From assembly GCF_039729145.1 (NCBI RefSeq), contig NZ_CP155793.1, positions 3,855,072 to 3,919,071 on the forward strand: a stretch of DNA of 64,000 nt, read 5' to 3'. The notes beneath the pieces were generated by a model, which worked only from the letters and a program-made list of their open reading frames with translations, ran no database searches and was not told where the DNA came from. Source of the stretch: Microbacterium sp. SY138. GTDB lineage: Bacteria; Actinomycetota; Actinomycetes; Actinomycetales; Microbacteriaceae. The position numbers and the translations under genes were made by a program. Shown piece by piece: positions 33,644 through 43,122 of the stretch (position 1 is the stretch's first letter; each line of letters opens with the position of its first letter).

Positions 33644-34669
33644 GTGTCCGCGAATGATGTGATCGCCGACGAGACCGATCGGATCGTCGCCGCGGCCCTG
33701 CAGGTGAACGGCCGCGCGTCGTGGGGCGAGATCGCTCGCGTGGTCGATCTGCCCGAGCGCACGGTCGCCCGTCGAGGCCAACGGCTGCTGGATCGAGGAC
33801 TGGTCCGCGTCTCCACCTACGTCGACCCGGCCCGCGTCCTACACGCCCGCGCGGTGCTGTTCCGCATCACGACCGAGCCCCATGCCCTGTGGCACGTGGC
33901 ACGCACGCTCGCGCGGCGGGCGGACGCGTCCTCGGTCTCGGTGCTCGAGGGCAGCAGCGACATCGCCGGAATGCTGCTCCCCCACGATGACGCCTCCATC
34001 CGCGAGCTGCTCTTCACCGACTTCCCCGAGCTCGACGGCATTGACTCGATCAATGTCACGACAGTGCTGAAGTTCTTCCGCTCGGGGCACGACTGGCGCG
34101 CGGGAGTGCTCACCGACGAGCAGGCGCGCATGCTCGACGAGTCGTCCGGATCCGAGGTCGACCCCGCCGATTCTCTGAGCACGGACGAAGAGGCGCTCAT
34201 CCGGCTGCTGCTGAAGGACGGACGGATGCCGGTCGCTCAGCTTGCCCGATCGCTGGGACTGAACGTCACGACCACCCGGCGCCGGATGGAGTCCCTGAGC
34301 CGTCGCGGTCTGATGCATCCGCGGACCGAGGTCGTGCCGAGTCTGTTCGGGTTGGGACTGGAGGCGCTCGTCTGGCTCCGGGTGCCGATGGCGCGCCTCG
34401 AGAGAGTGGGAACCGCCCTGGCGGCAGCGCCCGAGGTGAAGTTCATCGCCGCGACCACCGGCACCTCGCAACTGCTCGCCAACGTGCTCGTGAAAGACGC
34501 CGACGAGTTCTACGAGTTCCTCACCGGGCCGGCCGTGGCGGGCCACGAAGGCCTCGAGGTCGTGGAGTCGCTGGTCGTCATCACGCCGGTGCTGCGTGGG
34601 TCGCTGATCGTGGATGAGGCACCCGAAGCACTGGCGAACGACATGCCCACCGGCGCCATCCGCCTATAG
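33644..34669 (+). CDS. Double-length Lrp/AsnC family regulator
   Basis: A 341-residue regulator made of two Lrp modules. Module one has a helix-turn-helix at about residues 8-55 ('DRIVAAALQVNGRASWGEIA', 'LPERTVARRGQRLLDRGLVR') and a RAM-like domain. Module two starts near residue 180 with 'DEEALIRLLLKDGRMPVAQL' and 'LNVTTTRRRMESLSRRGLMH', followed by a second sensor part. The GTG start has AAGGAGAG upstream. Such tandem proteins are common in actinobacteria. It is immediately upstream of, and co-oriented with, the PuuC/PuuD/DUF3830/ABC transporter genes and probably controls them; a dyad GTTAC-N6-GTAAC lies in the next gap. Confidence 0.9.
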   Translation: MSANDVIADETDRIVAAALQVNGRASWGEIARVVDLPERTVARRGQRLLDRGLVRVSTYVDPARVLHARAVLFRITTEPHALWHVARTLARRADASSVSVLEGSSDIAGMLLPHDDASIRELLFTDFPELDGIDSINVTTVLKFFRSGHDWRAGVLTDEQARMLDESSGSEVDPADSLSTDEEALIRLLLKDGRMPVAQLARSLGLNVTTTRRRMESLSRRGLMHPRTEVVPSLFGLGLEALVWLRVPMARLERVGTALAAAPEVKFIAATTGTSQLLANVLVKDADEFYEFLTGPAVAGHEGLEVVESLVVITPVLRGSLIVDEAPEALANDMPTGAIRL

Positions 34670-34678
34670 TCTGATTCT

Positions 34679-34749
34679 GTTACTGACATGTAACGAAATG
34701 GCGAGATCGTTCTTCAGCGCTTGACCTAGTGGCGAAATAGGGCAAGTAT
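34679..34749 (+). promoter_or_regulatory. Predicted promoter and operator of the PuuC/PuuD/ABC transporter operon
   Basis: TTGACC (34721-34726), a 17-bp spacer and AAGTAT (34744-34749) form a good promoter. A 16-bp dyad, GTTAC-N6-GTAAC (34679-34694), and two copies of TGGCGA around the -35 box are candidate regulator sites. The predicted transcript would begin inside the hairpin at 34750-34778. Confidence 0.6.
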
Positions 34750-34778
34750 CCTCTCCAGGGCCATCACCCCTGGAGAGG
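34750..34778 (+). promoter_or_regulatory. Leader hairpin sequestering the ribosome site of the aldehyde dehydrogenase
   Basis: CCTCTCCAGGG (34750-34760) pairs perfectly with CCCTGGAGAGG (34768-34778) around a 7-base loop. The right arm contains the Shine-Dalgarno sequence GGAGAGG, six bases before the GTG start. The predicted transcription start falls near the left arm, so transcripts beginning at its first bases would fold and hide the ribosome site. Confidence 0.58.
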
Positions 34779-34784
34779 ACGACC

Positions 34785-36275
34785 GTGTTCACGGCAACGG
34801 GAGACAACTGGGCGGATCGCGCGGCGACGCTGCCCCTGCGCACGCGCTTGTTCATCGACGGTGCGTGGGAGGAGGGCTCGGCCGAGCCACTGACGCCGGT
34901 GAGCCCGCGCGACGGACGGACGCTCCCGCCGATCAGCGCAGCCTCGGTGGGCGATGTGGACCGTGCTGTGCGCTCGGCGCGCGCGGCATTCGACTCCGGG
35001 ATCTGGTCGCGGATCGCTCCCCGCGAGCGTGGACAGCTGCTGATCGCGTTCGCCCAGAGGATCCACGACAACGCCGAAGAGCTCGCCCTCACCATCTCGC
35101 TCGAGATGGGCAAGCCCCTGCGCGAGGCGCTGCAGACCGAGCTCCGCGCCGTCGTGAACTGCTTCCGCTGGTACGGCGAGGCTGCGGACAAGGTCCTCGA
35201 CGAGATGCCCGTCACCGCCCCGGGCAGCCTCGCGCTCGTCACCCGCGAACCGGCGGGAGTGGTCGCGGCCGTCGTGCCCTGGAACTTCCCCCTGACCATG
35301 ACCGCCTGGAAGCTCGCCCCCGCTCTCGCGGTCGGCAACAGCGTGGTGCTCAAGCCCGCCGAGCACACCACCTTCTCGGCGCTCCGTCTGGCCGAGCTCG
35401 CACACGAGGCCGGGATCCCCTCCGGCGTCCTGAACGTCACACCCGGCACCGGCCAGGTCGCCGGCCGTGCTCTCGGCGAGCACCATGACGTCGACGTCGT
35501 CACCTTCACGGGCTCGCCCGAGGTCGGCCGCAAGTTCCTCGGCTATTCGGCGGCGTCGAACGGCAAGCGCGTCTGGCCCGAGCTCGGTGGCAAGACCGCG
35601 AGCCTGGTGCTGCCGGATGCCGACCTCGAGCGCGCGGTGCGGGCCACCGCCGACGGCTGCTTCTACAACCAGGGCCAGATGTGCACGGCCTCGTCGCGTC
35701 TGCTGGTTCCCCGCGCCCAGCGGGACCGTGCCCTCGAGATCGCCGCCGACGTCGCACGCACGACCCTTCCCGCCGACCCCTTCGAGGTCACGACCTCGAT
35801 GGGCGCGATCGTCAGCGAGAGGCAGCTCGCGGGCATCGCCGGCTTCGTCGAGCGCGCCCAGGCGGAAGGCGGCGAACTCGCGGCCGGCAGCCCCGAGCGG
35901 TTCCACGCCGTCGATGGTGGCAGCTACTTCGCCCCGGTCGTGCTCGGCGTCACTCCCCAGCACGAGGTCGCGCAGCGCGAGGTGTTCGGCCCCGTGCTCT
36001 CGGTCATCGCCTACGACGACGTCGAAGACGCCCTCGAGATAGCGAACGGCACCGAGTTCGGACTCGCCGCCGCGCTCTGGAGCACCGACCTCAACGCCGT
36101 GCACACCCTGTCTCGGCGCCTGCGCGCCGGCGTCGTGTGGGTCAACTGCTTCGAAGAGGGCGACATGACGATCCCGTTCGGCGGCGTCAAGGGATCCGGA
36201 TTCGGTCGCGACAAGAGCCTGCACGCGCTCGAGAAGTTCACCGATCTGAAGACCACCTGGATCGAGCTCTCATGA
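34785..36275 (+). CDS. Aldehyde dehydrogenase, PuuC/aminobutyraldehyde dehydrogenase-like
   Basis: A 496-residue NAD(P)-dependent dehydrogenase. Catalytic Glu266 lies in 'WPELGGKTASLVLPD' and nucleophile Cys300 in 'NQGQMCTASSRLLVP'; '[20 protein letters not shown]' is the substrate/cofactor-site region. Similarity in general character is to gamma-glutamyl-gamma-aminobutyraldehyde and betaine aldehyde dehydrogenases. The GTG start follows GGAGAGG by six bases. It overlaps the PuuD-like gene by ATGA. With a polyamine-type importer downstream, an aminoaldehyde substrate is likely, but neither oxidase nor ligase is encoded here. Confidence 0.92.
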   Translation: MFTATGDNWADRAATLPLRTRLFIDGAWEEGSAEPLTPVSPRDGRTLPPISAASVGDVDRAVRSARAAFDSGIWSRIAPRERGQLLIAFAQRIHDNAEELALTISLEMGKPLREALQTELRAVVNCFRWYGEAADKVLDEMPVTAPGSLALVTREPAGVVAAVVPWNFPLTMTAWKLAPALAVGNSVVLKPAEHTTFSALRLAELAHEAGIPSGVLNVTPGTGQVAGRALGEHHDVDVVTFTGSPEVGRKFLGYSAASNGKRVWPELGGKTASLVLPDADLERAVRATADGCFYNQGQMCTASSRLLVPRAQRDRALEIAADVARTTLPADPFEVTTSMGAIVSERQLAGIAGFVERAQAEGGELAAGSPERFHAVDGGSYFAPVVLGVTPQHEVAQREVFGPVLSVIAYDDVEDALEIANGTEFGLAAALWSTDLNAVHTLSRRLRAGVVWVNCFEEGDMTIPFGGVKGSGFGRDKSLHALEKFTDLKTTWIELS

Positions 36276-37030
36276 CGCGCCCGTTCATCGGCATCACCAC
36301 CTGGCGCCGGTTCATCGACACCGATCTCGGGGCCGGCCGCGCGGCGCACACCCTGGGAACGGAGTACGCCGCCCCCATCGAAGCGGCCGGCGGTGCCGTC
36401 GTTCTCCTCCCTCCGACGGCGAGCGTGGACGAGGTGCTCGACCGCCTCGACGGGCTGGTGCTCTCCGGCGGCGAAGACGTGCACCCCTCGCGCTATGGTG
36501 CCGAACCGCAGGAGGGGAAGAACTACGACCCCTCGCGCGACGGCTTCGAGATCGAACTCGCCCTCGGGGCACGCCGGCGCGGTATCCCCGTACTCGCGAT
36601 CTGTCGCGGACTGCAGGTGAGCAACATCGCCTTCGGCGGGTCCCTCGTGATCGATATCCCGACCACGGAACACCACCAGCCGGTGCGCGCCGCCGACCAG
36701 CAGCTCGCCGCCCGGCATCCGATCGTCCTCGCGGACGGGAGCCGGCTCGCCGCCCTCTACGGCACGCGGGAGCGGATCGTGAACACCATCCATCACCAGT
36801 CGATCGACATTCCCGCCCCCGGTGTCCACTCCGTCGCCTGGGCGCCGGACGGGATCGTCGAAGCCGTCGAGTCCGACGACGACTGGCCCTTCTGGGCAGT
36901 GCAGTGGCACCCCGAGAAGATGATCGACCCCGATGAGGCCGCAGAGGAGATGCCGCTGTTCACGGCGTTCGTCTCGGCCGCCCGCGAACGAGCAGCGGAA
37001 CACCCCGCTGCGGAGAAAGGAACACGATGA
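36272..37030 (+). CDS. Gamma-glutamyl-gamma-aminobutyrate hydrolase-like (PuuD family)
   Basis: A 252-residue class I glutamine amidotransferase-like hydrolase. Nucleophile Cys111 is in 'PVLAICRGLQVSNIAFGG', and His213 with Glu215 in 'WAVQWHPEKM' complete the triad. 'LDGLVLSGGEDVHPSRYG' is the family's oxyanion region. In the E. coli Puu pathway the homologue releases GABA from gamma-glutamyl-GABA. It is coupled by 4-bp overlaps to the dehydrogenase and the DUF3830 gene, so it acts in the same pathway; whether the substrate is exactly gamma-glutamyl-GABA is not shown. Confidence 0.92.
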   Translation: MTRPFIGITTWRRFIDTDLGAGRAAHTLGTEYAAPIEAAGGAVVLLPPTASVDEVLDRLDGLVLSGGEDVHPSRYGAEPQEGKNYDPSRDGFEIELALGARRRGIPVLAICRGLQVSNIAFGGSLVIDIPTTEHHQPVRAADQQLAARHPIVLADGSRLAALYGTRERIVNTIHHQSIDIPAPGVHSVAWAPDGIVEAVESDDDWPFWAVQWHPEKMIDPDEAAEEMPLFTAFVSAARERAAEHPAAEKGTR

Positions 37031-37497
37031 CCAAGCAGGTCTTCCTCGAGTACGAGAACGGCGTCCGCGCCGTCGCCACCCTGTTCGAGGACCTCGCCCC
37101 TCGCACGTGCGAGGCCATGTGGGGTGCGCTGGAGAAGCCGGTCACCATGCAGGCGATGCACGCGATGTATGCCGGACCGGAGGTCATGGTCGGGCTCCCC
37201 GAAGAGGCTCAGAACTTCGACCCCGAGAAGGTGCCGTTCGAGAACCAGCAGGTCGTGCCCGCACCGGGTGATCTGCAGTGGTACTGGCAGCGACCCATGC
37301 AGATGGGTGGGCTGCCGTTCGAGTGGTACGAGATCGGCGTCTTCTACGATCGTGGTGCCCGTACTCTCGGCCCGCTCGGATGGACACCCGTCAACATCTG
37401 GGGCGGCATCACCGAAGGACTCGCGGAGTTCGCCAAGGAGAGCGCGGCGATCCGCATCGACGGAGCCAAGCAGCTCACCATCGGACGCCTGGTCTAA
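37027..37497 (+). CDS. DUF3830 family protein, cyclophilin-like fold
   Basis: A 156-residue soluble protein with 'NGVRAVATLFEDLAPRTCEA' and 'WQRPMQMGGLPFEWYEIGVF' and 'LGPLGWTPVNIWGGITEGLA', the pattern of DUF3830 proteins, which are reported to have a cyclophilin-like fold. The family has no established reaction. It overlaps the PuuD-like gene by ATGA and precedes the binding protein by 41 bp, so it belongs to the polyamine-like catabolic module. It may be a binding or isomerising step on the imported compound; this is a guess. Confidence 0.82.
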   Translation: MTKQVFLEYENGVRAVATLFEDLAPRTCEAMWGALEKPVTMQAMHAMYAGPEVMVGLPEEAQNFDPEKVPFENQQVVPAPGDLQWYWQRPMQMGGLPFEWYEIGVFYDRGARTLGPLGWTPVNIWGGITEGLAEFAKESAAIRIDGAKQLTIGRLV

Positions 37498-37538
37498 GGC
37501 GTCTACTCAGTGCTGGACCCATCCCGAAGGAGCAGTGC

Positions 37539-38618
37539 ATGAATACCCGAAGAATCCTCACCACCGGAGCGCTCGTCGCCACCGGAGCCCTCGTCCTCGC
37601 CGGCTGTGCTGCCGGTGACGACAGCGCATCGTCCGGCGACAAGGAGTTCGCCGGCGAGACCATCGTCGTCACGTCGTTCGGCGGCGACTGGGAGAAGGCC
37701 TTCATCGAGGCCGTCGTCGATCCCTTCGAGGAGGAGACCGGGGCGAAGGTCGAGCTGATCACGCTGTACAGCGCCGACGCCCTCGCGCAGGTCACCGCCC
37801 AGAAGGCGAGCCCGCAGATCGACGTCGTGCATTTCTCCGGAGGGCAGGAGTTCACCGCGGCCGCAGACGGTCTCATCGCGCCGATCGCCGCCGACGAACT
37901 CTCCGAGACCGGCGACCTGATCGACCTGGCCACGGCCGGACTCGAACGGGGCGAAGGCCCGGTCATCCAGCTCGCGCCGATCGGGCTCGTGTACAACACC
38001 GAGGCGGATGCGCCGGCACCCACCTCGTGGTTGGATCTGTTCGACGAGGCCTACGCAGGGCACGTCGCCCTCACGGACTTCTCGAACACGTACGGCGTGC
38101 TCTCGATGCTCCGGGTCGCCGACGCGCTCGGTGGTGGCATCGACGACCCGTCGCAGGCGATCAGCGATCTCGGGGCCCTGGCTTCCTCGGGCGACGCGAT
38201 CGTCGTCCCGACCTCGCCCGATCTGCAGACCGCCTTCGCCCAGCGCGACACGTGGCTCGCACCGTACGCGATGGACTACGCCGGCACGCTGCAGGACGCC
38301 GGCCTTCCGGTAGAGTTCATCGTCCCGGAAGAAGGCGTCACCGCCTCCCTCATCACGGCGAACGTGGTCGAGGGCCGGGACAACCCCGACCTCGCGAAGC
38401 TCTTCATCGATTTCGAACTGCGCCCCGAAGCACAGGCCGTCTTCGCGGAGAACATGCGGTACTCGCCGGTCAACACCAAGACCGAGCTCTCCGACGAGGC
38501 TGCGGACGCGGTGCTGACGGGTGACGAGCTCGAGACGGTCGTCGTCTACGCTCCGGGCGATGTCGCGGCTTCGCGACCGGCCTGGACCGATGAGTGGAAT
38601 GCGCTGATCACCAAATGA
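37539..38618 (+). CDS. Spermidine/putrescine-type ABC transporter substrate-binding lipoprotein
   Basis: A 359-residue binding protein with signal peptide and lipobox LAGC (lipidated Cys23). The mature start 'TIVVTSFGGDWEKAFIEAVV' followed by 'PFEEETGAKVELITLYSADA' is typical of PotD/PotF-type proteins, as is 'FIVPEEGVTASLITANVVEG'. GAAGGAGCAG precedes the ATG. It overlaps the first permease gene by ATGA. The ligand is probably a polyamine or a related amine; residues contacting ligand cannot be assigned with certainty. Confidence 0.92.
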   Translation: MNTRRILTTGALVATGALVLAGCAAGDDSASSGDKEFAGETIVVTSFGGDWEKAFIEAVVDPFEEETGAKVELITLYSADALAQVTAQKASPQIDVVHFSGGQEFTAAADGLIAPIAADELSETGDLIDLATAGLERGEGPVIQLAPIGLVYNTEADAPAPTSWLDLFDEAYAGHVALTDFSNTYGVLSMLRVADALGGGIDDPSQAISDLGALASSGDAIVVPTSPDLQTAFAQRDTWLAPYAMDYAGTLQDAGLPVEFIVPEEGVTASLITANVVEGRDNPDLAKLFIDFELRPEAQAVFAENMRYSPVNTKTELSDEAADAVLTGDELETVVVYAPGDVAASRPAWTDEWNALITK

Positions 38619-39442
38619 GTGTGCGAACCCGTAGGGAGCCCTGGCTCCTGCTCCTGCCGGCGATCGTGCTGCTCGCGCTCGCCTTCATCACCCCGGTGGC
38701 TGGCATGCTCCTCATGAGCGTGCAATCGTCGGCAGGCGGGTTCACCCTCGACAACTTCACCCGGTTGTTCACGAGTGAGTATCACCTCCAGGCGGCGCTG
38801 CGCTCGCTCCGCCTGGGGGTGATCCAGACGGTGATCACCCTACTCATCGCCATCCCGCTGTCCTACGTGATGGCGCGCGCCGGATCCAAGGTGCGCTCGT
38901 TCCTGCTGATCGTCGTGATCCTCCCGCTCATGACGAGCGTCGTCGTCCGCACGTTCGGGTGGGTGGTCCTGATGGGACCGTCAGGGCTCCTCATGAAGAT
39001 CCCCGGTGCCGAGTTCCTCGTGAGCGGCACCCAAGGCTTCCTCGGAACCGAGACCGGTGTCGTGATCGCGATGGTGCAGGTTCTCCTCCCGTTCGCGGTG
39101 CTGAGCATCCTCGGCGTGATCTCGGGCATCCGGCCGCAACTGGAGGAGGCCGCACGCACCCTCGGCGCCGGATTCTGGCGCACACTGGGGCACGTCGTCC
39201 TCCCCCTCGCGATCCCCGGCATCGTCGCCGGCGCCTCGCTCGTCTTCGTCCTGTCGGTGAGCTCGTTCATCACCCCGCGCTTCATCGGCGGCGCGCAGAT
39301 CCCGGTGTTCGCGCAGACGATCTACATCGATGCGACCACCAACCTCGACTGGTCGTTCGCGGCCGCGCAGGCCGTGCTGCTGTTCGCCGGGGTCATGCTC
39401 GTGCTCGCAGCGACGTCCCGACTCGGGAAGCAGAAGGTGTGA
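38615..39442 (+). CDS. Spermidine/putrescine-type ABC permease, PotB/PotH family
   Basis: A 275-residue membrane protein with about six helices; the first is 'WLLLLPAIVLLALAFITPVA'. The EAA loop reads 'EEAARTLGAGFWRTLGHVVL' and is followed by 'PLAIPGIVAGASLVF'. The start was set at 38615, where ATGA overlaps the binding protein stop; an upstream start in the same frame would lie inside that gene. It pairs with the PotC-type permease. Confidence 0.92.
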   Translation: MSVRTRREPWLLLLPAIVLLALAFITPVAGMLLMSVQSSAGGFTLDNFTRLFTSEYHLQAALRSLRLGVIQTVITLLIAIPLSYVMARAGSKVRSFLLIVVILPLMTSVVVRTFGWVVLMGPSGLLMKIPGAEFLVSGTQGFLGTETGVVIAMVQVLLPFAVLSILGVISGIRPQLEEAARTLGAGFWRTLGHVVLPLAIPGIVAGASLVFVLSVSSFITPRFIGGAQIPVFAQTIYIDATTNLDWSFAAAQAVLLFAGVMLVLAATSRLGKQKV

Positions 39443-39444
39443 CC

Positions 39445-40245
39445 ATGGTCCGTTCCGTTCCGATCCTCGGCAGGGTCCTCGCCATCGTCCTCGGCGTCGT
39501 GGTGACGCTCTACATGCTCGTGCCGCTCATGGTCGTCGCCGGAGCCTCGATCGGCGAGAACCGCTTCCTGACCTTTCCCGGTCAGGGCTTCACGCTCGAG
39601 TGGTACGTCGAGGCGCTCACCTCCGACACGTATCTCGAGCCGTTTCGGCTGAGTCTGCTGGTCGGCATCACGGTCGCGATCGTCGCCGCAGCCATCGGCA
39701 CCGCAGCCGCTCTCGCCCTCACCCGCTTCAAGGTCCCCGGCGGTGCCGCCATCCAGGGGCTGCTGATGTCGCCGCTGACGATCCCCACGATCATCCTCGC
39801 CATCGGCGCACTGTCCATCTCCTCACTCACGATCGGGTCGCCGAATGTGGGTGTCCTGATCGCGATCCACGTCGTGATCGCGATCCCCTATGTCATGCGC
39901 ACCGTCACAGGTGTCATGACCAGGGCCGACCACTTCACGGAAGAGGCGGCACGCACCCTGGGCGCCAGCACCTGGAACCGCTACCGCCTGGTGGTGCTCC
40001 CCATCGCCCGCCCCGGCATCGCCGCCGGCGCGTTCTTCGCCTTCAACATCTCGTTCGACGATGCGGTCATCGCCCTCTTCCTGCGTACTCCGCAGCTCGA
40101 GACCCTGCCCATCGCCATCTACGGCCAGCTGGAGTTCAGCACGTCGCCCACCGTGGCCGCCGTCTCGACTCTCATGGTCCTGCTCACCGTCGTCCTCATG
40201 ATCGTGCTCGAACGCATCATCGGCCTGGGAAGGTTGTTCGTCTGA
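39445..40245 (+). CDS. Spermidine/putrescine-type ABC permease, PotC/PotI family
   Basis: A 266-residue membrane protein. The first helix is 'ILGRVLAIVLGVVVTLYMLV' and the EAA loop 'EEAARTLGASTWNRYRLVVL' is followed by 'PIARPGIAAGAFFAFNISFD' as in PotC. It begins two bases after the PotB-type stop and shares TGATG with the ATPase gene, so the transporter genes are tightly coupled. Confidence 0.92.
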   Translation: MVRSVPILGRVLAIVLGVVVTLYMLVPLMVVAGASIGENRFLTFPGQGFTLEWYVEALTSDTYLEPFRLSLLVGITVAIVAAAIGTAAALALTRFKVPGGAAIQGLLMSPLTIPTIILAIGALSISSLTIGSPNVGVLIAIHVVIAIPYVMRTVTGVMTRADHFTEEAARTLGASTWNRYRLVVLPIARPGIAAGAFFAFNISFDDAVIALFLRTPQLETLPIAIYGQLEFSTSPTVAAVSTLMVLLTVVLMIVLERIIGLGRLFV

Positions 40246-41288
40246 TGACAACACTCACCATCACTGCTCTCACCAAGGACTTCAAAGGGACGAAGGTGCT
40301 CAAGGGCATCGACATCTCGATGCGTTCGGGGGAGTTCGTCTCCTTGCTCGGGCCCTCGGGGTGCGGCAAGACCACGCTCCTGCGCTGCATCGCGGGCCTC
40401 GAGTCGCCCAGCGGCGGCACGATCGAGATCGCAGGCCAGGATGTGACCGGGCTCCCGCCCGAGAAGCGCCACCTCGGCATGATGTTCCAGAGCTATGCGC
40501 TGTTCCCGCACATGAGCGTCGTCGAGAACGTGCGCTTCGGTCTGCGCATGTCGGGCGAGAAGACCAAGGCCGAGCAGAAGGAACTCGCCGTCCGTGCGCT
40601 CGAGCGCGTGCAGATGGGCCACCTGGCCGATCGGATGCCGGCGCAGCTGTCGGGCGGACAACAGCAGCGCGTCGCCCTGGCCCGTGCCATCGCGTTCGAG
40701 CCGCGCGTACTGCTGCTCGACGAGCCGCTGTCGAACCTCGATGCCCGCCTACGGGAGGACATGCAGGTCGAGCTGAAGGAACTGCACCGCACGCTCGGCC
40801 TGACCACCGTGTTCGTCACCCACGACCAGGAGGAGGCGATGAGCCTCTCGGACCGCATCGTCCTCATGAACGCGGGTGTGATCGAGCAGGAGGGCGCACC
40901 GGCCGAGCTCTACGGAGCACCGCGCACTCCCTTCGCCGCCGACTTCATCGGTGCCGCGAACCTGCTGCCTGCGACCCGTTCCGGCGCCGTGGCGACATTG
41001 AATGGCACCACGATCCAGGTGCCGATGACCGGCGCGGGCCCCGATGGCGCCGGCGAGGTGGTGCTCCGCCAGGAAGATCTGCGGCTCTCCCCGACGATCG
41101 GAGGCGACGCTCCGGTACGTGTCGAGGTCGTCACCCATGTCTACCGAGGCGCCGACGTCGTCTACATCGTCGAGCTCGCGGGAAAGCGGATGCGCGTCGT
41201 GCGTCCGCGGCACGAGGCGCCGATCCCCGAGGGTGCGGCCGGTCTCGGCTGGCGAGAGGGTGCCGTGCTCTGGATCGCCGCGGCCTGA
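40245..41288 (+). CDS. Spermidine/putrescine-type ABC transporter ATP-binding protein, PotA family
   Basis: A 347-residue ATPase. Walker A is GPSGCGKTT near residues 36-44, Q-loop 'GMMFQSYALFPHMSVVENV', signature 'LSGGQQQRVALARAI', Walker B 'VLLLDEPLSNLD' and H-loop 'VFVTHDQEEAM'. A C-terminal TOBE-type domain (from about residue 240) contains 'VEVVTHVYRGADVVYIVELA', typical of PotA/FbpC-like subunits. It shares TGATG with the preceding permease and ends the operon at a 38-bp perfect palindrome. Confidence 0.94.
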   Translation: MTTLTITALTKDFKGTKVLKGIDISMRSGEFVSLLGPSGCGKTTLLRCIAGLESPSGGTIEIAGQDVTGLPPEKRHLGMMFQSYALFPHMSVVENVRFGLRMSGEKTKAEQKELAVRALERVQMGHLADRMPAQLSGGQQQRVALARAIAFEPRVLLLDEPLSNLDARLREDMQVELKELHRTLGLTTVFVTHDQEEAMSLSDRIVLMNAGVIEQEGAPAELYGAPRTPFAADFIGAANLLPATRSGAVATLNGTTIQVPMTGAGPDGAGEVVLRQEDLRLSPTIGGDAPVRVEVVTHVYRGADVVYIVELAGKRMRVVRPRHEAPIPEGAAGLGWREGAVLWIAAA

Positions 41289-41297
41289 CGAACAGAT

Positions 41298-41335
41298 CCG
41301 CTCCTCGTCGGAGGGCGCCCTCCGACGAGGAGCGG
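41298..41335 (+). terminator. Perfect 38-bp palindrome ending the transporter operon
   Basis: Two 19-bp arms (41298-41316 and 41317-41335) are exact reverse complements with no spacer; the left arm is CCGCTCCTCGTCGGAGGGC. It lies 9 bp after the ATPase stop and 20 bp before the next gene. No T run follows. Long enough to act as terminator and to be prone to cruciform extrusion. Confidence 0.8.
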
Positions 41336-41355: not shown

Positions 41356-43122
41356 ATGGCCGACGAAGATTCCCCCTCCCCCGACGCCCCCCGCGATGCC
41401 TCCCGCCGAGGCTTCTTCAAGGTGGGCGGCGCCGCCCTCGCCGGCGCGGTGGTCGGCGGTGTCGGCGGCGCGGCCATCGGAGCCTCCATCGCCGGTAACG
41501 GTCGCGACGGTTTCGCGGCGGATCCCGATCCGTTCGCCGCCCTCACGCCGCGCAGCGAACCCGGTTTCGATCACCTCGTCGTCGTGATGGGCGAGAACCG
41601 CTCCTTCGACAACCTGCTCGGGTACCTGTACTCGAAGGAGAACCTCCCGGCGGGCGAGACGTTCGAGGGTCTGGAATTCGGCTCCTACAGCAACACCGCC
41701 TCCGACGGCACGGTCGTCGACGCGCACGTGTACGAGGGCGACACCGACCGGATCATGAGTCTTCCCGACCCGGACCCGGGCGAGGAGTACCCGCACGTCA
41801 ACACGCAGATCTTCGGCACGGTCGATCCTCCGACGAACGCCGACCTCTTCGTCGACGAGATGACCGCGCCCTTCAACGCCCCGACGCGCGGCGAGAAGGC
41901 CACGATGTCGGGTTTCCTCGAGGACTACATCATCAACTTCCGACGCCTGCGCAAGGGTGTGGATCCCCGGCCCGACGAAGCCGCGCACATCATGGGCTCG
42001 TTCTCTCCCGAGATGCTGCCGGTGCTGTCGACGCTCGCCTCGGAATTCGCGGTGTTCGACCACTGGTACGCCGGAGTGCCCTCGCAGACCTTCTGCAACC
42101 GTTCGTTCTTCCATGCCTCCACGTCTCACGGTTTCGTGACCAACCAGGCCGGAGGCGGCTACCGGAAGTGGTTGGATGCGCCGGCAGCGCCCACGGTGTT
42201 CAACCGGCTCGAAGACAAGAAGGTGAGCTGGAAGATCTACATCGACAAGCTCCAGCTCGTCTCGTTTACCGGCATGCTGCATGCGGCGGTGCTGGAGAAG
42301 TACTGGCGCACCGATCATTTCGGAACGATGGAGGACTTCTACGCCGAGGCGAAGGACGGCACGCTCCCCGCATACGCCTTCATCGAGCCGCGGATGGTTT
42401 ACGACCACAACGACTTCCACCCTCCTTTCGGTTCCCCCCGCGAGAGCGAGGTCGACGGTGAGGCCGTGTTCGACAGTGCGATCTCTGACGTGCGTGCCGG
42501 AGACCGCCTCATCCACGACATCTACGAGGCGGTGCGCACGAGCGCTTCCCAGAAGGGCTCCAACGCCGTCAACACCCTGCTGCTCATCACCTTCGACGAG
42601 CACGGCGGGTGCTACGACCACGTGCCGCCGCCCGCCGTGACGAAGCCGACGCCCGAGACCGGCCCGGGTGAGATGGGCTTCACCTTCGATCGGCTCGGGT
42701 GCCGGGTGCCGGCCATCGCCGTCTCGGCCTATACCAAGCGCGGCAGCATCATCCATGACGAGATGCATCACGGATCCGTGACCGCGACCCTCTCTCGCCT
42801 GCACGGCCTGACGCCCCTCAACGACCGGGATGAGTCGGCGAACACGCTCCTGAACGTCGTCAACCTCGACAAGCCGCGGCATCCGTCCGACTGGCCGGTG
42901 ACCACCCCGGCCTACACGCCGCCCAACCCGGAGGACACGGCACCACAGCCCGGAGAGAAGGATCAGCTGAAGCCTCTCACGCCGCCCGCACGCGGTCTGC
43001 TCGGCCTACTCCTCGCGCGATACGGCAAGCCCGGTGAGCAGGAGCCGGAGACCTTCGCCGACGCGTACAAGCTGCTGCACGAGCACGGCGAGGAGCTGTT
43101 CGGTCCGCCGAGCGGCAGTTGA
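41356..43122 (+). CDS. Tat-exported phospholipase C/acid phosphatase superfamily protein
   Basis: A 588-residue secreted enzyme. The Tat signal has twin arginines at 17-18 in 'SRRGFFKVGG', followed by a Gly/Ala-rich hydrophobic stretch. The catalytic domain opens with 'FDHLVVVMGENRSFDNLLGY' (Glu80-Asn81 as metal ligands) and shows 'TFDEHGGCYDHVPPP' around residue 414 as the second metal-site motif; this is the bacterial phospholipase C/AcpA fold. It cleaves phosphoester bonds of phospholipids or other organic phosphates outside the cell. A domain boundary near residue 500 leads to a Pro-rich tail. No PHO box was seen in its very short upstream gap. Confidence 0.93.
   Translation: MADEDSPSPDAPRDASRRGFFKVGGAALAGAVVGGVGGAAIGASIAGNGRDGFAADPDPFAALTPRSEPGFDHLVVVMGENRSFDNLLGYLYSKENLPAGETFEGLEFGSYSNTASDGTVVDAHVYEGDTDRIMSLPDPDPGEEYPHVNTQIFGTVDPPTNADLFVDEMTAPFNAPTRGEKATMSGFLEDYIINFRRLRKGVDPRPDEAAHIMGSFSPEMLPVLSTLASEFAVFDHWYAGVPSQTFCNRSFFHASTSHGFVTNQAGGGYRKWLDAPAAPTVFNRLEDKKVSWKIYIDKLQLVSFTGMLHAAVLEKYWRTDHFGTMEDFYAEAKDGTLPAYAFIEPRMVYDHNDFHPPFGSPRESEVDGEAVFDSAISDVRAGDRLIHDIYEAVRTSASQKGSNAVNTLLLITFDEHGGCYDHVPPPAVTKPTPETGPGEMGFTFDRLGCRVPAIAVSAYTKRGSIIHDEMHHGSVTATLSRLHGLTPLNDRDESANTLLNVVNLDKPRHPSDWPVTTPAYTPPNPEDTAPQPGEKDQLKPLTPPARGLLGLLLARYGKPGEQEPETFADAYKLLHEHGEELFGPPSGS

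Follow-up and report, generated by a model that had tools for sequence, protein, structure and literature searches.

What does an operon that carries relatives of two late enzymes of gamma-glutamylated putrescine breakdown, but neither the ligase (PuuA) nor the oxidase (PuuB) of that pathway, do with the compound it imports? The question is raised by an eight-gene cluster of Microbacterium sp. SY138, located at positions 33644-41288 (+ strand) of the window, the 64,000-nucleotide (nt) stretch of contig NZ_CP155793.1 analysed here. According to gene calling and Pfam searches, the cluster encodes an Lrp/AsnC-type regulator (Lrp), an aldehyde dehydrogenase (ALDH), a PuuD-like C26 hydrolase, a DUF3830 protein and a four-gene ATP-binding cassette (ABC) importer (Table 1); no ligase or oxidase was found among the eight genes. 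The genes are co-oriented and tightly packed, with overlaps at five of the seven junctions (ATGA three times, GTGA and TGATG) and gaps of 41 nt between the DUF3830 and binding-protein genes and 115 nt between the Lrp and ALDH genes. The preliminary description was thus right about this layout and about the position of DUF3830 between hydrolase and binding protein, whereas its 'tandem Lrp' is a single chain of 341 amino acids (aa), in which two AsnC-type helix-turn-helix domains and one ligand-binding domain were detected. All eight proteins are 100% matches to one locus of Microbacterium maritypicum MF109 (L067), which places the window in that group. DUF3830 is encoded in a single copy in the genome and scores above the Pfam gathering cutoff (132.9 vs 26 bits).

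The eight genes are a conserved unit. The survey of DUF3830 neighbourhoods that had been proposed earlier was run, and the unit was found to be conserved across 36 loci of DUF3830 clade A, 35 of them collected with a profile built from five closely related DUF3830 proteins and one being a Rhizobium plasmid locus (L095). In profile searches (E at most 1e-20), from which, rather than from simple gene calls, the counts over these loci and by clade were taken, ALDH was present in 35/36, Lrp in 34/36, C26 in 33/36, and the Pot-like binding protein with both permeases in 22/36. Across 20 control regions (each 20 kb long and taken from a genome with DUF3830 but at a distance from the gene; clade A genomes supplied four), ALDH was found in two and Lrp, C26 and the binding protein in none. 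Given these counts for ALDH, Lrp and C26, the gene set is not due to chance, although the 36 loci are related by ancestry and were all found via DUF3830, and so do not count as independent trials. The misses were ALDH and C26 in L091 and Lrp in L084 (both short contigs), C26 in L092, and Lrp and C26 in L095. A narrower count over 18 of the 36 loci, which left aside a fragment, a locus broken by a frameshift and further loci of Microbacterium and Leifsonia, and used L041 in place of L074, gave ALDH 17, Lrp 16 and C26 15, against 2, 1 and 0 of the 20 controls. Among 23 loci, the protein clusters shared by at least three of 16 lineage labels were DUF3830, ALDH, Lrp, ATPase, C26 and the parts of one of two importers; genes can be missed by the simple gene calls used in this survey, since DUF3830 itself was missed in 2/23 (L071 and L086). 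Over 13 Microbacterium loci, DUF3830 was better conserved than any other protein of the unit (mean identity 96.6%, compared with 83.2-94.8% for the other seven). An insert between Lrp and ALDH in a Leucobacter locus (L041; MatC-type carrier, CoA-transferase and enoyl-CoA hydratase) was rejected as part of the unit, as it is not found between these genes in L040 and L075. In L060, C26 matched in two pieces, as did most module genes in L081, likely because of frameshifts or assembly errors.

The ALDH and the C26 hydrolase belong to the families of PuuC and PuuD, but both score below the equivalog cutoffs (506 vs 850 bits and 105 vs 266 bits, respectively). The solved chains nearest to the ALDH are KauB (504.6 bits) and a gamma-glutamyl-aminobutyraldehyde dehydrogenase (4lih, 500.5 bits). 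The Cys-His-Glu triad of C26 is intact, with Cys111 kept in 32/32 and His213 and Glu215 in 31/32 called sequences. The unit therefore resembles the Puu pathway in having a PuuC-like ALDH beside a C26 hydrolase and an ABC importer, and differs from it in these scores, in the lack of PuuA and PuuB genes among its eight and in the addition of DUF3830; a simple Puu operon was rejected on these grounds. The term 'Pot-type importer' proved loose. The binding protein scored 28.5 with the PotD model (cutoff 582) and 50.4 with PhnS, again below cutoff, and the ATPase did not reach the potA subfamily cutoff (325.2 vs 355.6). Moreover, two unrelated importers occur across clade A: the Pot-like set, found in Microbacterium, Leucobacter, Arthrobacter, Rhodococcus, Ruicaihuangia, Cryobacterium and Rhizobium, and in most other loci an SBP_bac_3-type set, found in Leifsonia, Pimelobacter and others (Pfam run on L083 and L092).

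Both the DUF3830 profile and the AlphaFold model (pLDDT 93) matched the cyclophilin-fold domain of the Pictet-Spenglerases KslB and McbB, showing that DUF3830 is homologous to this domain. Pictet-Spenglerases join an amine to a carbonyl. All 64 DUF3830 members compared (near-duplicates included) keep His45 and Glu72 and have an acidic residue, Glu or Asp, at position 102, a pattern more like that of an active site. The protein thus shares the fold, the profile family and an invariant His with KslB, McbB and cucumopine synthase, and differs from them as a single 156-aa domain in a catabolic setting. A DUF3830 protein of Arthrobacter sp. FB24 (PDB 3kop), deposited as uncharacterised, is about 32-33% identical to the one studied here.

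The import genes, the PuuC/KauB-type ALDH, the C26 triad, the lack of a recruited ligase or oxidase and the DUF3830 fold together suggest aldehyde release by DUF3830. The ABC importer is predicted to take up a small amine-containing adduct, which DUF3830 would split with release of an aldehyde; the ALDH would then oxidise the aldehyde, the C26 hydrolase would cut a remaining amide bond, and the Lrp-type protein would sense the imported compound or its product. We tentatively prefer this scheme, in which the substrate, the order of the steps, and both the catalytic role of DUF3830 and its cleaving direction are conjectural, while giving it somewhat less than an even chance. A more specific version, which we regard as doubtful, makes DUF3830 a compact retro-Pictet-Spengler-type lyase of one domain, which would split opine- or alkaloid-like amine-carbonyl adducts imported by actinobacteria and pass the aldehyde to the operon ALDH with no need for a ligase or an amine oxidase. 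Because the unit is conserved and a direct search of the fetched stretches found a homologue of the genomic ligase (2.86 Mb) or of the flavin adenine dinucleotide (FAD) amine oxidase at 3.34 Mb (L119) in none of the 36 loci, DUF3830 is a credible candidate for the missing step proposed in the preliminary description, but the step is missing from the operon only.

Several findings, concerning the active site, the sampling of loci, the genomic background and the other clades, weigh against cleavage by DUF3830. A Glu kept in 17/17 Pictet-Spenglerase-type domains, which we take to be the catalytic Glu97 of McbB, corresponds in DUF3830 to Gly118 beside a gap, with no acidic partner. Glu102 of DUF3830 was considered as its counterpart and rejected, as it aligns to the McbB His87 column. 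The helical Cucumopine_C domain (PF18631) that DUF3830 lacks had no match in this genome, either fused or as a separate protein. The missing Glu, the cyclophilin-like fold and the uncharacterised status of 3kop would fit a protein without catalytic activity that binds the imported small molecule or chaperones it; with the invariant His45 and Glu72 and the acidic position 102, such a role seems quite improbable. In addition, all loci were selected through DUF3830, and any unit that had lost DUF3830 would go unseen.

As for the genomic background, PuuA and PuuB are absent from the operon, as had been stated, and neither was found in the 36 loci, but the idea that both are missing from the whole genome was rejected for the ligase. 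The genome holds three glutamine-synthetase homologues, one of them a PuuA-like ligase beside a second C26 gene at 2.86 Mb, and 33 DAO-family matches, including FAD amine oxidases of which none is established as PuuB. The ligase scored 186 against a cutoff of 650 on the GGputSyn model. Its surroundings (L117, 2.851-2.871 Mb) contain the ligase, C26, an ALDH, an SDR gene, a four-gene Pot-like importer, an ethanolamine-permease-like gene and, judged by sequence only, a GntR-like gene; this cluster probably represents a ligase-based gamma-glutamyl amine route and looks like one of the gamma-glutamyl-ethanolamide type. Of the 15 genomes in which a clade A DUF3830 is known, 14 (all but G971) were searched for orthologs; the Microbacterium genomes other than G000 had been checked for DUF3830 alone and not for the whole unit. 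A ligase ortholog (64% or more) was found in 6/14 genomes, with an additional partial match of 67% in G177 and more distant ligases in G969 (37%, 269 bits) and G1005 (35%, 259 bits). No match exceeded 33% in G1015, and G1052 (83% complete) gave one match of 32%. In G051, G152 and G236 (93-100% complete), no ortholog was found, and the matches, one or two per genome and none above 35%, were taken for housekeeping glutamine synthetases. Because these three nearly complete relatives carry the unit without a ligase ortholog, the unit appears not to need that ligase. It would make a third set of amine-handling genes in the genome, independent of the 2.86 Mb ligase set. The earlier proposal that PuuA and PuuB elsewhere, co-induced with the operon, would speak against a new pathway is thus half borne out as regards presence, and the same three relatives argue against dependence on that ligase.

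At 3.34 Mb (L119:4962-8433), a DAO/FAD amine-oxidase gene lies near an aminobutyraldehyde dehydrogenase gene (674 vs 615 cutoff) and an Lrp-like gene, and its ortholog (62% or more) is present in 12/14 genomes with clade A DUF3830, the two exceptions, G1052 and G177, being incomplete (83% and 88%). Within Microbacterium, the oxidase (E at most 1e-150; both scans taken as covering the same 149 genomes) occurs in 9/10 genomes with DUF3830 and 73/139 without it (Fisher p = 0.02). The oxidation step may therefore lie outside the unit, or the co-occurrence may reflect shared ancestry. If a ready-made gamma-glutamyl-type amide were imported, this oxidase could make the aldehyde, ALDH and C26 could finish as in the Puu pathway, and DUF3830 would be an accessory protein; the relationship of the ALDH to KauB and gamma-glutamyl-aminobutyraldehyde dehydrogenase and the intact C26 triad also fit this route, which is possible, if on the unlikely side. 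However, the 3.34 Mb oxidase has ALDH and Lrp neighbours of its own, it is common without DUF3830, it has no homologue in any of the 36 loci, and the top conservation of DUF3830 fits an accessory role poorly. The selection of loci through DUF3830 weakens one argument against this route, while the direct 36-locus search strengthens the case for the unit. With three DAO queries, only one gene was found across the 36 loci, beside the Ruicaihuangia unit (L078); it was rejected as an amine oxidase because the model for L-2-hydroxyglutarate oxidase identifies its L043 copy (558, above a cutoff of 299).

The other clades provide the last points against the proposed cleavage. Membership of clade A, B or C was judged by eye on sequence motifs rather than from a tree, and the clade counts exclude the outlier L045, plasmid loci L096-L100 and DUF3830 hits without fetched surroundings. 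ALDH was found in 6/16 clade B loci (p = 0.058) and 1/18 clade C loci, so that a general partnership of DUF3830 with ALDH holds only partly. Clade B loci (n = 16) contain genes for arylmalonate-decarboxylase/racemase-like proteins (14), 2-hydroxyacid dehydrogenase (13), amidase (12) and aminotransferase III (11), and clade C loci contain M20 peptidase genes (8/18); the partner families of both clades were found in at most 2/20 control regions. The amide or peptide hydrolase thus differs by DUF3830 group, and further hydrolase-type neighbours are found on plasmids and in Novosphingobium. This variety would suit a DUF3830 that acts on a ring (cyclic amide, lactam or hydantoin-like), opening or isomerising it, and feeds a clade-specific amide hydrolase. 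We consider this improbable, as such a reaction does not account for the ALDH found with DUF3830 in clade A, Rhizobium and Novosphingobium, the stretches fetched for L092 and L095 hold no C26, and 10/18 clade C loci lack M20. In L054 and other clade B loci, amidase, arylmalonate-decarboxylase-like, 2-hydroxyacid dehydrogenase, aminotransferase III and DUF3830 genes recur as a set, which forms another putative catabolic cluster.

On plasmids, DUF3830 has FAD oxidoreductase, aminotransferase V and M24-type genes as neighbours (M24-type only in Deinococcus, on three plasmids), or branched-chain-type importers with GntR. In Novosphingobium, it lies between genes for a DMF-amidase-type subunit and an MBL hydrolase on one side and succinate-semialdehyde dehydrogenase on the other. 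Where an Agrobacterium and a Shinella plasmid encode relatives of the Rhizobium binding protein, DUF3830 is not among the annotated neighbours. On the Agrobacterium/Rhizobium opine plasmids pAtAg67 and pRi2659, a four-gene ABC importer and hutH flank the gene of a full-length homologue of cucumopine synthase, which is annotated as DUF3830 and lies near histidine-degradation and hydantoinase/oxoprolinase genes. For pAtAg67, a cucumopine-catabolic region is named in PMC10745273. These regions resemble the unit in combining a four-gene ABC importer, a DUF3830-annotated protein and amino-acid degradation genes, and differ from it in having a full-length synthase-like enzyme and histidine-degradation genes in place of ALDH and C26; the opine-plasmid enzyme would act in the cleaving direction. 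A second, divergent cucumopine-synthase homologue ('hypothetical') adjoins the first on both plasmids. In these opine-catabolic regions (L135 and L136), the two divergent cucumopine-synthase-like genes stand side by side, with the cyclophilin-like domain first in one and last in the other. On pRi1724, in Sodalis and in Sinorhizobium (L137, L138 and L139), two adjacent genes, one of them annotated DUF3830, encode the enzyme in separate parts.

Table 1. Genes of the DUF3830 unit and non-coding elements around them, in window coordinates
Feature	Position	Strand	Evidence
Lrp/AsnC regulator, 341 aa	33644..34669	+	HTH_AsnC-type 63 bits, AsnC_trans_reg 44 bits (Pfam)
TGGCGARAT direct repeat 1, candidate Lrp operator half-site	34699..34707	+	sequence reading
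TGGCGARAT direct repeat 2, 31 bp downstream of repeat 1	34730..34738	+	sequence reading
Leader stem-loop, 3' arm carrying the GGAGAGG Shine-Dalgarno of the ALDH gene	34750..34778	+	ViennaRNA -23.6 kcal/mol
ALDH, PuuC/KauB-like	34785..36275	+	Aldedh 493 bits (Pfam)
C26 class-I glutamine-amidotransferase-like hydrolase, PuuD-like	36272..37030	+	Peptidase_C26 197 bits (Pfam)
DUF3830, 156 aa, cyclophilin-fold relative of Pictet-Spenglerases, candidate adduct-cleaving enzyme	37027..37497	+	132.9 bits (Pfam PF12903)
ABC importer solute-binding protein	37539..38618	+	SBP_bac_8 89 bits (Pfam)
ABC importer permease 1	38615..39442	+	BPD_transp_1 (Pfam); start from gene call and overlap in sequence
ABC importer permease 2	39439..40245	+	BPD_transp_1 (Pfam); PotC model 154.6 vs 326 cutoff
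ABC importer ATPase	40245..41288	+	ABC_tran 130.6 bits plus TOBE_2 (Pfam)
Long inverted repeat downstream of the ATPase gene, possible transcript end	41298..41335	.	sequence reading

Two non-coding elements precede the ALDH gene. The TGGCGARAT repeat pair is a candidate Lrp operator; by eye, it is present in most of 14 aligned rows and degenerate in L072 and both Leucobacter rows. The modelled stem-loop in the leader points to possible control of the ALDH gene. The L072 and L073 leaders form hairpins built from other letters, with GGAGAGG again in the arm in L072 but not in L073, and an Rfam search gave no family for the stem-loop and no match of note. Immediately downstream of the cluster and outside the module, positions 41356-43122 encode a phosphoesterase-family protein with weak likeness to phospholipase C or acid phosphatase.

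DUF3830 is a patchy, accessory trait. Clade A members were found in 10/149 genomes of the genus Microbacterium, and DUF3830 of any kind (E at most 0.001) in 10/299 genomes of the family, six of them clade A, and in 33/296 sampled genomes of the phylum. A search of one paper library for DUF3830, 3KOP and PF12903 found no paper. The link between DUF3830 and an amine-carbonyl fold family, together with the conserved unit, makes its function directly testable. If the retro-Pictet-Spengler lyase reading were true, a protein family that so far has no known function would gain one, bacteria would degrade condensed amines by cleavage and not by oxidation, and the question would extend to the other DUF3830 clades.

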